Virus record (IMG/VR): IMGVR_UViG_3300034105_001194
Location: 1 to 28,255 of that record
Strand: one strand, 5' to 3'
Source: a virus
Length of the DNA: 28,255 bases
The translations under genes and the position numbers were made by a program. Shown here one piece after another: positions 1,871 to 5,229 of the stretch (positions within the stretch are counted from its first letter, which is position 1; every line of letters starts with the position of its first letter). A model generated the notes under the pieces. The model saw nothing but the letters and a program-made list of their open reading frames with translations, was not told where the DNA came from and made no database searches.

Positions 1871-1904
1871 TTACGTTAATGCATTAGTTTTTTACTTACA
1901 TTTA
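1871..1904 (+). promoter_or_regulatory. Class A phage promoter
   Basis: TTACGTTAATGCATTA at 1871-1886 is a variant of the recurring 16-base element; 19 bases after its TTACGTT comes TACATTTA (1897-1904), close to the flavobacterial TAnnTTTG -7 box. Spacing agrees with the other class A sites (17-20). It would transcribe a decayed gene fragment and the accessory region. Confidence 0.55.
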
Positions 1905-2001
1905 CAAGAAGTACGGCAAGAAAGAATTAAAGATGATATTGCTTACAACAAAGGGTTTAAAGATGCAATGATAAAGTATAGAACAATTTAAAAAGAAATA
2001 A
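1905..2001 (+). pseudogene. Decayed copy of a small phage gene
   Basis: One frame (1911-1991) reads as plausible protein (RQERIKDDIAYNKGFKDAMIKY) but has no start codon and stops early. Shifting by +1 after base 1979 restores the ending EQFKKK and a stop at 1999-2001. That ending is the same as in the intact gene at 2003-2158, and the two genes share a near-perfect 27-base repeat over it. It looks like a truncated, frameshifted paralogue left behind just downstream of an intact promoter. Confidence 0.5.
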
Positions 2002-2007
2002 GATGAA
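1981..2007 (+). repeat. Direct repeat, copy 1 (27 bp)
   Basis: This matches 2138-2164 with one difference (A/G in the stop codon, TAA versus TGA). Both copies encode the C-terminus EQFKKK and the following AGATGAA. The offset of 157 bases equals one small gene, consistent with a tandem duplication. Confidence 0.85.
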
Positions 2008-2158
2008 AAACATACACATATTACCAAGGCAACAAGAAAGAAGTTATAGTGAGGAAGATTTAAAAACTGCTTTCCTTGATGGCTGGCAATTAAGAGATGG
2101 AGATTTACCTTTTTCTAAAGCAATGAAAAAATGGTTTGAACAATTTAAAAAGAAATGA
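2003..2158 (+). CDS. Small protein (51 aa), unknown
   Basis: The ORF starts at ATG 2003, directly after the first repeat copy, and ends within the second. The product has a polar N-terminus (RQQERSYSEEDLK), a central helix with AFLDGW, and a basic C-terminal helix (KKWFEQFKKK). Comparable small proteins with an SEEDLxxAFxxGW core occur in Bacteroidota phages and prophages; their function is unknown to me. The decayed upstream copy with the same C-terminus supports this being a real gene family. Confidence 0.6.
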   Translation: MKNIHILPRQQERSYSEEDLKTAFLDGWQLRDGDLPFSKAMKKWFEQFKKK

Positions 2159-2164
2159 GATGAA
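2138..2164 (+). repeat. Direct repeat, copy 2 (27 bp)
   Basis: Second copy of the repeat at 1981-2007, 26 of 27 bases identical, covering the end of the 51-aa gene and the first bases after it. Confidence 0.85.
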
Positions 2165-2170
2165 AGAAAA

Positions 2171-2294
2171 AACGGCTGACGCTAACCGATGTTCAGGAAA
2201 AGTAAGCCTAAACTTTCGGATGATGACTAGACTTACAGACACAAAAAAAACATTAAATCTAACCTAAAGCCTGAATAGCGGTTAGCGTATGTTA
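2171..2294 (+). repeat. attC-like imperfect palindrome J1
   Basis: The arm at 2180-2197 (CGCTAACCGATGTTCAGG) pairs with 2270-2287 with two mismatches in 18. Outside the arms are AACGG at the left and TATGTTA at the right. The right end is followed by a conserved flank, TCGGCTTTTT then TTCCACTAA, that also follows the element at 3111-3181. Size (124 bp), the TAAC/GTTA-type ends and its position between single genes resemble integron attC sites, but the GTTRRRY core is not matched exactly. The loop holds no gene. Confidence 0.6.
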
Positions 2295-2322
2295 TCACTT
2301 CGGCTTTTTATTCCACTAAAGT

Positions 2323-2802
2323 ATGAGAACAAAAACAACATTAAAAATTCTATCTGAAACATCAGAAGAAACAAAAGAAAAAGTAAGAAATAATGCTAAC
2401 AATTTAATAAATAAAAAAATGGACATAAAAGAAAAAATGACAACACAAGAAAAAGCATTAGAATTAGTGCAGGACTTAGGTTTTAATCACGCTATTTATG
2501 TTACTGAAGAAGTAATAGCTATCCTTGAAGATTGGGAGGGAACTGAATTGGCTAAAAAAGATTGGATTGAAATTAAGGAAATTATAGAAAGTATAGAAAA
2601 TACTAACAATTTAATTGAAAATCACTATCAAGAAATAAATGATATTGTTCACGAAAATCAAGGAAATTTAGGAGATATTACTAATCAAATTTATGAGTGG
2701 TTCAAACGATTCAAATATGATTATTCAAAAAATTGTGAATGTGAAACACGAATAGGCGAAACGTGGTGCTGCAATCAATGTGGTTTACCGACTACTAAAT
2801 AA
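2323..2802 (+). CDS. Unknown protein with C-terminal Cys cluster (cassette gene 1)
   Basis: A 159-residue protein. The first two thirds is acidic and helical; the last 25 residues contain a Cys cluster (NCECETRIGETWCCNQCGLP), which could bind zinc as a small ribbon. The first ATG is 29 bases after the J1 palindrome; Met at 2419 and Met at 2437 are alternative starts, and the region between 2323 and 2419 is low complexity, so the true N-terminus may be shorter. It is alone between two palindromic elements, like a gene cassette. I do not recognise the family; a regulatory or anti-defence role would be speculation. Confidence 0.65.
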   Translation: MRTKTTLKILSETSEETKEKVRNNANNLINKKMDIKEKMTTQEKALELVQDLGFNHAIYVTEEVIAILEDWEGTELAKKDWIEIKEIIESIENTNNLIENHYQEINDIVHENQGNLGDITNQIYEWFKRFKYDYSKNCECETRIGETWCCNQCGLPTTK

Positions 2803-2811
2803 GCTGAGTGA

Positions 2812-2937
2812 TAACGTTTCGCAGATTTGCGAGGGTTGGGGCTTTTACCACAAAATTAAATTTGAAACACAAAATTATGGATTTACTAAAAATATTATTT
2901 GAAAAACGACATCCCAACTCTTGCAAATGTGATGTTA
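2812..2937 (+). repeat. attC-like imperfect palindrome J2
   Basis: It begins TAACG at 2812 and ends GTTA at 2934-2937. Left arm 2825-2840 (ATTTGCGAGGGTTGGG) pairs over all 16 positions with 2913-2928 (two pairs being G-T). It is a relative of J4 (3623-3749): same length within one base, and the centres align (CACAAAA, AATT(T)GAAA, ACAAAA, then ATG). The start codon of the next gene lies in its loop. Confidence 0.65.
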
Positions 2938-3113
2938 GTGGCTGGGTGTCTTATGATTGGAATAAACCACAAACCCGACCAACTAAATACGGCAAATACT
3001 TTGTTCATCGCAAAGATGGTAAAACGCACTGGGAAACTTGGAACGGTAGCGGTTGGGCGTATAATGGAAATATAATTACGTTTTGGATGGAGGTTATACC
3101 ACCTTGCCACTAA
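2877..3113 (+). CDS. Small DUF551-like protein (cassette gene 2)
   Basis: 78 residues. The C-terminal half, KYGKYFVHRKDGKTHWETWNG followed by W, an aromatic run and FWMEVIPP, resembles the short DUF551-type domains (G-Y/F-V-R..G....W...W, then xxWMPLPxPP) found in phages. An upstream in-frame ATG at 2808 exists but would translate the palindrome arm, so 2877 is preferred. Even so, the first 25 or so residues (HPNSCKCDVSGW) are encoded by the right arm of J2, so the N-terminus appears to have been recruited from the recombination-like element. Function unknown. The stop overlaps the left end of J3. Confidence 0.6.
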   Translation: MDLLKILFEKRHPNSCKCDVSGWVSYDWNKPQTRPTKYGKYFVHRKDGKTHWETWNGSGWAYNGNIITFWMEVIPPCH

Positions 3114-3181
3114 CGTTAAAACTACACGCTGGTTGCCTATGCGGTTGCTAAATTTCGGCAACTAGCTTGTAGTGATTGTTA
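3111..3181 (+). repeat. attC-like imperfect palindrome J3
   Basis: A compact 71-bp element from TAACG to GTTA. Arms 3121-3137 (ACTACACGCTGGTTGCC) and 3157-3173 (GGCAACTAGCTTGTAGT) pair with two mismatches in 17. The right flank, TCGGCTTTTTTTTCACTAAC, matches the flank of J1. Its size is in the usual attC range. No integrase gene is visible in the window. Confidence 0.65.
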
Positions 3182-3263
3182 TATTCTCGGCTTTTTTTTC
3201 ACTAACAAAATCAGTTAACGAGGAATACTCGACAACTTAAAAATAACATTAAAACTAAACAAA

Positions 3264-3578
3264 ATGACAATACAACAAGAAGCATTATTAAGACACAATT
3301 CTATTGAGGAATTATTAGACAATATGACTACCGAAAAATCAACTGGAATGAAAAGAGTTTTTGCTGAAATAGGAAGTGATGAAAACGGTTATAGCAATTT
3401 TAAAAATAGATACAAGTTTTTTAAAGAAACTATTGAAAAAGATTTGCCAGAACTAACCAAAGATGAAATTATAAAATTCAATCGCTATTATCATAGTTTT
3501 AGAGAAATCTATAAATGGAATGGATTTGATGTTTTGTTAAAAGTATTAGAATGGGAAGAACTACAAAAGACAAAATAA
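3264..3578 (+). CDS. Unknown soluble protein (cassette gene 3)
   Basis: 104 residues, mixed charge, predicted mostly helical (SIEELLDNMTTEKSTGMKRV; FKNRYKFFKETIEKDLPELT). It has no signal peptide, transmembrane segment or metal-binding pattern, and I do not recognise it. The start ATG is preceded by an A-rich stretch (AAAACTAAACAAA), normal for Bacteroidota. It sits alone between palindromes J3 and J4. A small hairpin with CTTTC/GAAAG arms lies just after its stop at about 3581-3613. Confidence 0.65.
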   Translation: MTIQQEALLRHNSIEELLDNMTTEKSTGMKRVFAEIGSDENGYSNFKNRYKFFKETIEKDLPELTKDEIIKFNRYYHSFREIYKWNGFDVLLKVLEWEELQKTK

Positions 3579-3622
3579 AAGCGAGAGTAGCTTTCACCAG
3601 AAAGTTGCTCGAAGCTGGAATA

Positions 3623-3749
3623 TAACGGCTTCGGGCTTGGCGAAGTGCGGGCTTAATATCACAAAAGTTTAATTGAAAGACAAAAGTTTATGATAAATAC
3701 AGAAGATAAATTGAAAGACGAAACCCCGCATTTTGCCAAACCCGTGTTA
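3623..3749 (+). repeat. attC-like imperfect palindrome J4
   Basis: TAACG at 3623 to GTTA at 3746-3749. The left arm at 3632-3651 (CGGGCTTGGCGAAGTGCGGG) pairs with 3725-3744 over 19 of 20 positions (two G-T pairs). It is related to J2 in length and centre. The right end continues TGTGCTGG; J2 continues GTGGCTGG. The methyltransferase start codon lies in its loop and about 20 codons run through the right arm. Confidence 0.7.
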
Positions 3750-4406
3750 TGTGCTGGTGCGGTTTCAAAAGACGGTATTTCATTGATACACGGAGATAGT
3801 TTGCAAGCCTTAAAAAGCTATGGCGATAATTACTTTGATGTGGCAATAGTTGACCCACCATACGGGATTGGAGATACTTTTATCGGATTTTCAAGTGGAG
3901 TAAAAAAAGGTAAACTTGAAAGAGTTCATAAAGAAATGAAATGGGATGATAATATACCAAGTGATGAATATTTTGCGGAACTAAAAAGAGTATCTAAAAA
4001 ACAAATCATTTGGGGTGCTAATTACTTCAACTCATTTAATAACGAGGGCGGTGCGTTGGTTTGGTATAAAAACAGAGGCGGAAATACTTTAAGCCAATGT
4101 GAAATAGCAAGTGTTTCAGGTCAGAAAAAAGTTGATTATGTAGCTATACAAATATTAACTGGATTTGTAGCCGATGAAGAACGAATACACCCAACGCAAA
4201 AGCCTGTAAAACTTTATAGATGGGTGCTTGAAAATTACACAAATGAAAATGATTTGATTTTAGATACTCACTTAGGAAGCGGAAGTATCGCCATAGCTTG
4301 CCACCAAATGAAACGGAAACTAATAGGATATGAAATTGATGCAGATTATTACCGAAAGGCTTGCAAACGATTTGAAGAACAAACTCGTCAAACAGCATTA
4401 TGGTAG
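3690..4406 (+). CDS. DNA adenine/cytosine-N4 methyltransferase (cassette gene 4)
   Basis: A 238-residue amino-methyltransferase. The catalytic motif DPPYGIG is at 55-61, HPTQKP at 167-172 and the AdoMet-binding DTHLGSGS at 192-199, followed by the GYEIDADYY strand. Catalytic motif before the AdoMet motif is the beta-class order (N6-adenine or N4-cytosine). The core family start is near residue 28 (GISLIHGDSLQAL); the first 27 residues are largely encoded by the J4 palindrome, so they may be an accidental extension, and GTG at 3744 is an alternative start. No restriction enzyme is adjacent, so it probably protects phage DNA or regulates expression. The specificity cannot be read from the sequence. 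Of the cassette genes this is the only one with a clear function. Confidence 0.9.
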   Translation: MINTEDKLKDETPHFAKPVLCAGAVSKDGISLIHGDSLQALKSYGDNYFDVAIVDPPYGIGDTFIGFSSGVKKGKLERVHKEMKWDDNIPSDEYFAELKRVSKKQIIWGANYFNSFNNEGGALVWYKNRGGNTLSQCEIASVSGQKKVDYVAIQILTGFVADEERIHPTQKPVKLYRWVLENYTNENDLILDTHLGSGSIAIACHQMKRKLIGYEIDADYYRKACKRFEEQTRQTALW

Positions 4407-4473
4407 CACTTGCACATAACTACTCGCTATAACCTATAAAAGTATTACTTTTACTTCTTAACTATCTAAAAAT

Positions 4474-4617
4474 ATGGTAAAATATACAAAAGTAAAAGTA
4501 ATTAAGATTACAGAGCAACAACATCAAACGTTAAAAAAATTAGACAGCTATCAAATCAATGTAGCGCAGTTCATCAGGGATGCAATTTTTATTAAATTTA
4601 TTACGTTATTATATTAA
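4474..4617 (+). pseudogene. Ribbon-helix-helix regulator, 5' part (interrupted gene)
   Basis: The 47-residue frame begins with an RHH pattern: strand KVKVIKITEQQHQTLKKL, then YQINVAQFIRDAI as helix B. After FIRDAI the sequence degenerates into the recurring promoter element and stops (residues ITLLY). The usual RHH continuation (basic helix then KREY-type ending) is missing here but is found in frame 628 or 637 bases downstream at 5228-5284. Joining them at a shared TTTA or AATTTTTA gives an uninterrupted RHH protein. RHH proteins are small DNA-binding repressors. The truncated form could still be made, but would lack the end of helix B. Confidence 0.7.
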
Positions 4618-4632
4618 TTTTTTGTATCTTTA
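4601..4632 (+). promoter_or_regulatory. Class A phage promoter of the HNH cassette
   Basis: An exact TTACGTTATTATATTA at 4601-4616, then TATCTTTA at 4625-4632 after a 17-base spacer, one base from TAnnTTTG. With the preceding TTTA and the following T run, it is nearly identical to the site at 26301-26325. Predicted transcription start is about 4637-4640. Confidence 0.55.
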
Positions 4633-4642
4633 CTGAGTCGAA

Positions 4643-4718
4643 ATTCAGGAAGTCGATATTTAAAAATTTAATTTAAAGTTTAGTGAGTACCCGCCTGAAT
4701 CGGAGAAAGCTAAACTTT
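4643..4718 (+). promoter_or_regulatory. Structured 5' leader (pseudoknot or attenuator) of the HNH gene
   Basis: Two perfect pairings interleave: ATTCAGG 4643-4649 with CCTGAAT 4694-4700, and AAAGTTTAG 4675-4683 with CTAAACTTT 4710-4718. The order A-B-A'-B' is that of an H-type pseudoknot, or of two alternative structures. The second helix ends in a run of seven T and directly precedes ATG 4726, so it could act as a terminator or mask translation. AGTCGA occurs twice around the first arm. No known riboswitch class is recognised. Confidence 0.5.
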
Positions 4719-4725
4719 TTTTATT

Positions 4726-5229
4726 ATGGAAAACTGGATAGATATTAAAGGATTTGAAGGGTTGTATCAAGTTAGTGATTTAGGCAATGTTAAAAGTTTG
4801 GGTAATAACAAACTTAGAAAAGAAAAAATACTAAAACAAGGTTTATCGCATTGCGGATATAAAACTGTTTGTTTATCAAAAAACAATAAATGTAAAACAT
4901 ATACTACACATAGATTAGTAGCAATGTCTTTTATCCTAAATAATGAAAATAAGCGCACGGTAAATCACCGTAATGGTATTAAAATAAATAATAATGCTAT
5001 AAATTTAGAATGGTGTACTACTTCCGAAAATACCAAACACGCATACGATAATGGATTGATAAAAGTTTCTAAAGCAGAATGTCACGTTAATTCAAAATTA
5101 ACTAATTTACAAGTTTTAGAAATAAGAAAAATAGGTAGAACTTTAAAACAAAGAGTTATAGCTGATATGTTTGGAGTTAGACAAGTTTTAATAAGTAATG
5201 TTTTAAATAATATAAGTTATAATTTTTAA
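4726..5229 (+). CDS. HNH homing-type endonuclease (NUMOD4 + HNH_3)
   Basis: 167 residues in the order usual for free-standing phage homing enzymes. A NUMOD4 DNA-binding segment (WIDIKGFEGLYQVSDLGNVKSL, residues 4-25) comes first. The HNH_3 nuclease core is at about 61-107, with H62, N80-H81 and the N-x-x-N-LEW-CTTSEN block. A C-terminal helix-turn-helix at 123-161 (NSKLTNLQVLEIRK; IADMFGV) follows. The enzyme would nick or cut a target in phage lacking the insertion and promote its spread by repair. Here the presumed target is the RHH gene split around it. It has its own promoter and leader, and its stop codon overlaps the first restored codon of the RHH 3' part. Confidence 0.9.
   Translation: MENWIDIKGFEGLYQVSDLGNVKSLGNNKLRKEKILKQGLSHCGYKTVCLSKNNKCKTYTTHRLVAMSFILNNENKRTVNHRNGIKINNNAINLEWCTTSENTKHAYDNGLIKVSKAECHVNSKLTNLQVLEIRKIGRTLKQRVIADMFGVRQVLISNVLNNISYNF

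Follow-up and report, generated by a model that had tools for sequence, protein, structure and literature searches.

Investigation of an IMG/VR virus record of 28,255 bases (the window, meaning the whole stretch of DNA that was analysed), which encodes terminase, portal and tail genes, raised the question of whether four single genes set apart by palindromes form an array of mobile cassettes comparable to that of an integron and, if so, which kind of recombinase acts on it. The preferred reading, with a probability of roughly three in four, is that a Bacteroidota phage carries an array of four integron-type mobile cassettes that has no integrase.

Elements, units and genes of the array

The palindromes J1 to J4 set apart four genes between the gene of an AAA protein and a small ORF that is followed by an HNH gene; all features of the array lie on the plus strand. 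The preliminary description had proposed four palindromic elements, and each of them was confirmed in place: J1 (2171..2294), the first attC-like element of the array, the long elements J2 (2812..2937) and J4 (3623..3749; GGGCTTGGCGAAGTG...CATTTTGCCAAACCCGTGTTA), J4 being of the commonest type, and the short element J3 (3111..3181). A start in TAACG and an end in GTTA, as described, apply to J2, J3 and J4, while J1 (AACG...GTTA) lacks the outer T; the pairing of the arms is good, but not always with the 0-2 mismatches that had been given (J1, 19 nt at 89%; J4, three wobble or mismatch columns). The right flank TCGGCTTTTT common to J1 and J3, which had been noted as a shared feature, is in part the pairing of unit ends (GGCTT with AAGC). 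A T run is present 3' of both J1 and J3.

Unit C1 (2291..2815; GTTATCAC...AGTGATAAC) holds a gene for an unknown protein of 159 aa (2323-2802), and unit C3 (3178..3626; GTTATATTC...GAATATAAC) one for an unknown protein of 104 aa (3264-3578). The gene of unit C2 (2934..3114; GTTAGTGGC...GCCACTAAC) starts with an ATG at 2877, within the loop of J2, and counted from there encodes 78 aa (2877-3113), DUF551-like by eye and without a match in Pfam. Likewise, an ATG at 3690 in the loop of J4 encodes the leader MINTEDKLKDETPHFAKPVL and opens the gene of unit C4 (3746..4420; GTTATGTGC...GCACATAAC), an N6_N4 DNA methyltransferase (3690-4406). These assignments agree with the gene contents proposed before, as does the lack of an integrase in the window: the array end (4417..4440; TAACTACTCGCTATAACC) resembles attI-like sites found beside recombinases elsewhere (TAACTNNTNTATA), and no recombinase follows it in the window. 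Two further features were observed around the array, a 28-nt direct repeat (96%; 1981-2008 and 2138-2165) whose copies end two small, neighbouring ORF regions shortly 5' of it, and a NUMOD4/HNH homing-type endonuclease gene (4726-5229) a short distance 3' of it.

Complementary unit ends and the mobile unit

The strongest feature of the array, missing from the preliminary description, is the complementarity of the two ends of each unit. Every unit starts with GTTA-N5 and ends with N5'-TAAC, N5 being specific to the unit (TCACT, GTGGC, TATTC and TGTGC) and complementary to its own N5' in 4/4 units of the window. In the window, GTTA and TAAC form 1675 pairs at a distance of 100-1500 nt. At least five complementary bases are present in five of these pairs, four of which are the four units; given the observed background of 0.0012 per pair, the chance of 4/4 paired units is ~2e-12. 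In relatives, end complementarity of 5-6 nt was found in 101 of 151 adjacent pairs (control mean 0.7), and across 203 unique units positions 5-9 covary, with 153-171 Watson-Crick pairs and 3-4 pair types at each position compared with 46-109 after shuffling. Beyond these positions an inner motif recurs (TG/TT, TCG/TG or a G.T pair, then 2-3 further pairs). The flanks of one and the same element did not pair with each other in the adjacent-pair comparison. In integron cassettes, the start pairs with the cassette's own end in the circular form, and the complementarity of 5' and 3' ends expected of such cassettes (R'/R'') is present here. At many loci, copies of one cassette differ by 28% per base in the spacer next to the junction (positions 5-9 after TAACG), compared with 3.7% for the downstream gene; strand exchange across an overlap may be the cause of this divergence, or else a lack of constraint.

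Regarding the limits of the mobile unit, two kinds of locus pairs were compared. Loci with a common downstream gene behind different upstream genes (83 pairs) have kept the element, at a median similarity of 0.84; in loci that share the upstream gene end and then continue into different downstream genes (43 pairs), the two elements bear no resemblance and the sequences diverge from TAAC(G) onwards. It follows that an element and its downstream gene together make up the mobile unit, with the junction between TAAC and G (TAAC/G). The earlier assignment of the element to the other side was wrong: it moves together with the gene downstream, and J2 and J4 even contain the ATG of that gene. As far as sequence comparison can tell, unit structure, end covariation, exact junctions and the co-travel of site and gene are well founded, and the integron-like, cassette-wise organisation proposed at the outset is strongly supported.

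The content of the array also varies at its own locus. Most relatives of the window phage identified through the AAA protein (n=43) have no elements at the array locus, two of them (L179 and L186) have different arrays 3' of the AAA-protein gene, and phage 11b has other arrays plus a J1 homologue at 1712-1846 with the same right flank GTTATCACTTCGGCTTTTTA. Since these arrays differ, the gene order is not fixed across related phages, which had been named as the finding that would count against cassettes, and unit-wise gain or loss is supported by variation of both presence and content at one locus. A search for a pair of otherwise identical arrays differing by exactly one inserted unit found none; the exact gain, loss and shuffling of cassettes known from integrons is seen here in the junction comparison and in the variable arrays at one phage locus.

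The same elements are widespread. The arm pattern of J4 matches at least 119 IMG/VR stretches, some by chance, and most matches are full elements with other genes between them; the proposed search for such elements around other cargo was thus productive, in more than 100 IMG/VR stretches. Arrays of this kind also occur in phage 11b, Polaribacter phages and Bacteroidota genomes, with up to ~45 units, and a structural scan of both strands gave 518 hits in 1.04 Mb of related loci vs 18 in shuffled sequence. Single-gene units with imperfect palindromes between them, as in integrons, are thus present here. IMG/VR 3300043411_001575 (L192-L193) carries >40 inverted cassettes on one unbroken strand over 38 kb, with a recombinase at the end; many of its cassettes encode orphan N6/N4, C5 and MT-A70 methyltransferases. 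DNA methyltransferases are abundant among the cargo of relatives, which would fit an anti-restriction role. A longer class of elements (~180 nt, with GCAGGC-rich arms) was observed at two loci of a Bacteroidota MAG (L208 and L209).

Gene orientation, folded strand and recombinases

Of the 114 ORF-bearing units in the viral groups, 109 have their gene downstream of the element (91+6+12 vs 5+0+0). The corresponding counts are 17/24 in MAG contigs and 0/11 in chromosomal XerA-like arrays; the latter had been considered inverted as well, a view that was dropped once ORF orientation was measured. The integron arrangement, with attC 3' of the gene and the gene reading away from attI, is therefore not that of the viral arrays, whose genes read towards attI. 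Among 164 long elements (105-140 nt), the class to which J2 and J4 belong, 107 show a loop ATG that is in frame, counted where it opens a frame of at least 45 codons that crosses GTTA, while short elements have none (0/104). At least seven proteins with no relation to each other carry the leader M[SI][ND]RITEQPFCQTR as a fusion, from which it follows that element cores are reassorted on the GTTA side too; this reassortment is unexplained by the cassette model. The in-frame fusion of one attC-encoded leader to many unrelated proteins is a possible footprint of new-cassette formation.

The arms are asymmetric in their pairing. In 116 non-redundant arms, 167 G.T wobbles are in the sense and 54 in the antisense orientation (p 1e-14), with 466 vs 168 in the redundant set; the viral loci were gathered with one 15-mer, which biases arm statistics and spares the 116-arm strand statistics, the orientation counts in relatives and the single-locus comparison of AAA-protein relatives. 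The internal loop is uneven as well, mostly with 5-6 nt facing 1-3 nt. IntI recombines the bottom strand of attC, and with attI at the left, as in the integron frame, the sense strand of the elements is the bottom strand; the bias would accordingly favour the strand that corresponds to the folded attC bottom strand. The R' core GTTRRRY is absent, the cores in the window being GTTATCA, GTTAGTG, GTTATAT and GTTATGT. The preliminary description was correct in calling this core inexact, but taken alone this is no sign of a distinct system: IntI-linked arrays of Bacteroidota are not strict either, and the motif was dropped as a discriminator.

Regarding the enzyme, a tyrosine recombinase of 276-298 aa is encoded directly after the last unit in four array-bearing viral contigs, in which the TAAC of the last unit abuts an attI-like sequence. 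No terminase (PF03237) was detected in these four contigs, which may therefore derive from a host or from some other mobile DNA. Recombinase homologues (E below 1e-50) are present in Bacteroidota chromosomes in 84 of 395 genomes; at 34 chromosomal loci sampled, a paired unit end lies 61-108 bp from the recombinase stop in 11 and an array within ~1.2 kb in three more, several others being near contig ends. Profile-found recombinases of seven MAGs had no array beside them and were left out of the count. The attI-like ends beside recombinases mostly share TAACTNNTNTATA, with deviations at L121, L124 and L212. An attI next to the integrase gene, typical of integrons, is seen in related loci, and the window has a similar end with no recombinase.

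The nearest family of the array-linked recombinases is XerA, i.e., the XerA/integron-like simple tyrosine recombinases (NF040815; 'integron-like' subgroup, PMC8138268), for which no earlier link to cassette arrays was found in the literature. Scores against NF040815 are 176-213 bits, under its cut-off of 220, and those of the viral enzymes against TIGR02249 (IntI) are 145-169, split around the I2 region, with a cut-off of 265 bits. The I2 insert of IntI is missing: the spacing of the boxes is 59-66 aa vs 106 in IntI and 71-72 in XerC/D, and an alignment to IntI4 leaves a gap at the insert. An IntI integrase with an I2 domain near patch III is likewise missing from the window. In the phylogenetic tree, array-linked recombinases fall outside the IntI clade (100/100 support) and are interleaved with array-free ones, so array linkage is not confined to one clade. 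A structure prediction of the recombinase was of low confidence (pLDDT 57) and was set aside. Linkage of recombinases to arrays in relatives and the strand bias of pairing are both readings of sequence data; within that frame, the presence at array ends of XerA-like recombinases that lack the IntI insert lends support to the earlier suggestion of a distinct cassette-moving system. The inverted arrays are tied to XerA-like enzymes through four contigs only, because the chromosomal XerA-like arrays are in normal orientation.

Competing explanations and significance

The array works like an integron cassette array and is not a canonical integron, since three marks of canonical integrons, namely their gene orientation, the core GTTRRRY and the features of IntI, were sought and are lacking. 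In the proposed mechanism, a cassette would consist of the attC-like hairpin and the downstream gene, cut at TAAC/G; in a putative circular form the two variable ends would pair and lengthen the hairpin, and a tyrosine recombinase supplied in trans would bring whole units in or out, most likely acting on the sense strand in its folded form, which is the bottom strand when seen in the integron frame. A gene with the site on its 5' side would take promoter and start signals along, long sites bringing a start codon and leader peptide, and a cassette could therefore be expressed wherever it lands, with no need for the platform promoter of an integron; this would suit a phage. In complete versions, the array ends with an attI-like site and a XerA-like integron recombinase that lacks I2; the window phage itself could be served by a XerA-like enzyme or by IntI in trans.

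The alternative that survives best, although we regard it as unlikely, is an ordinary CALIN, in which phages acquired canonical Bacteroidota IntI cassettes, inversion arose by selection on the phage side and IntI in trans moves the cassettes. IntI cassette arrays and CALINs do share with the present arrays single-gene units, palindromic sites, an attI by a tyrosine recombinase, a one-strand folding bias, cassette-wise mobility and the complementarity of start and end within a cassette; unit ends pair in IntI-linked arrays too. Suitable enzymes are also available, as IntI above the NCBIfam cut-off was found in 57 of 198 Bacteroidota genomes. This frequency (L252-L277 among the loci) is far above the published one, integrons of Bacteroidota having been reported as rare, with one complete integron, in Salinibacter, according to IntegronFinder 2.0 (PMC9024848). 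The phage CALINs of Qi et al. 2023 (PMC9892861), notably that of Polaribacter phage P12002L, are likewise integrase-less attC clusters with DNA methyltransferase cassettes in Bacteroidota phages, and IntI1 recombined attC2 of P12002L (PMC9892861); P12002L has one candidate element of the window kind and its sister phage P12002S has elements of this kind. However, the IntI-linked arrays examined have the gene first and then attC, with genes directed away from attI and starting ~20 nt past GTTA, whereas in the present arrays the site is 5' of the gene and holds its start codon, the genes are directed towards attI, the core is GTTA followed by freely variable bases, and the recombinase of the recombinase-bearing inverted arrays is XerA-like and lacks the I2 insert. 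Odd cassette directions are taken as mosaicism in PMC9892861, which reports no inverted-cassette family, in-site start codons or non-IntI recombinase. Treponema-type integrons (PMC3607928) resemble the chromosomal XerA-like arrays in that the integrase is transcribed towards attI, but have an IntI-type integrase and cassette genes that read away from attI.

Shuffling of units by homologous recombination between near-identical hairpin arms, without a site-specific enzyme, could draw on the GGGCTTGGCGAAGTG arm type common to many elements and on the presence of one leader on unrelated genes; it is nevertheless quite improbable, as identity switches at TAAC/G, outside the arms, even where the arms are unrelated, and neither the unit-specific complementary ends nor the linkage to recombinase and attI would be explained. 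That the palindromes are terminators, regulatory RNA hairpins or MITE-like repeats between operon genes is very improbable, for although intergenic hairpins and the T runs 3' of J1 and J3 would suit this, J2 and J4 straddle coding starts, the ends of one unit pair across hundreds of bases while the flanks of one element do not, and attI-like sites and recombinases lie at array ends. An Rfam search of 1900-4700 returned no family and a chance hit only.

Integron-type mobile cassettes thus remain the preferred reading of the array. For the broader proposal, that a second lineage of integrons occurs widely among Bacteroidota and the phages of this phylum, the odds are about even: in this lineage an I2-less XerA-like recombinase would act on hairpin attC sites, and the phage branch would have inverted, self-expressing cassettes with a site-encoded start and leader on unrelated cargo, mainly anti-restriction methyltransferases. 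The literature searched, with most subscription journals and all preprints outside its scope, contained no description of integrons with inverted cassettes, nor of an integron recombinase other than IntI. The findings suggest that enzymes outside IntI serve large pools of cassettes in this phylum and in its phages, and searches based on IntI would therefore miss such arrays. If the proposal is true, recombination at hairpin sites would be separable from the I2 domain, which has been thought essential for it, a way for cassettes to be expressed without a platform promoter would be at hand, and phages would have a means of swapping anti-restriction genes, while the in-site leader common to unrelated genes bears on how new cassettes arise.
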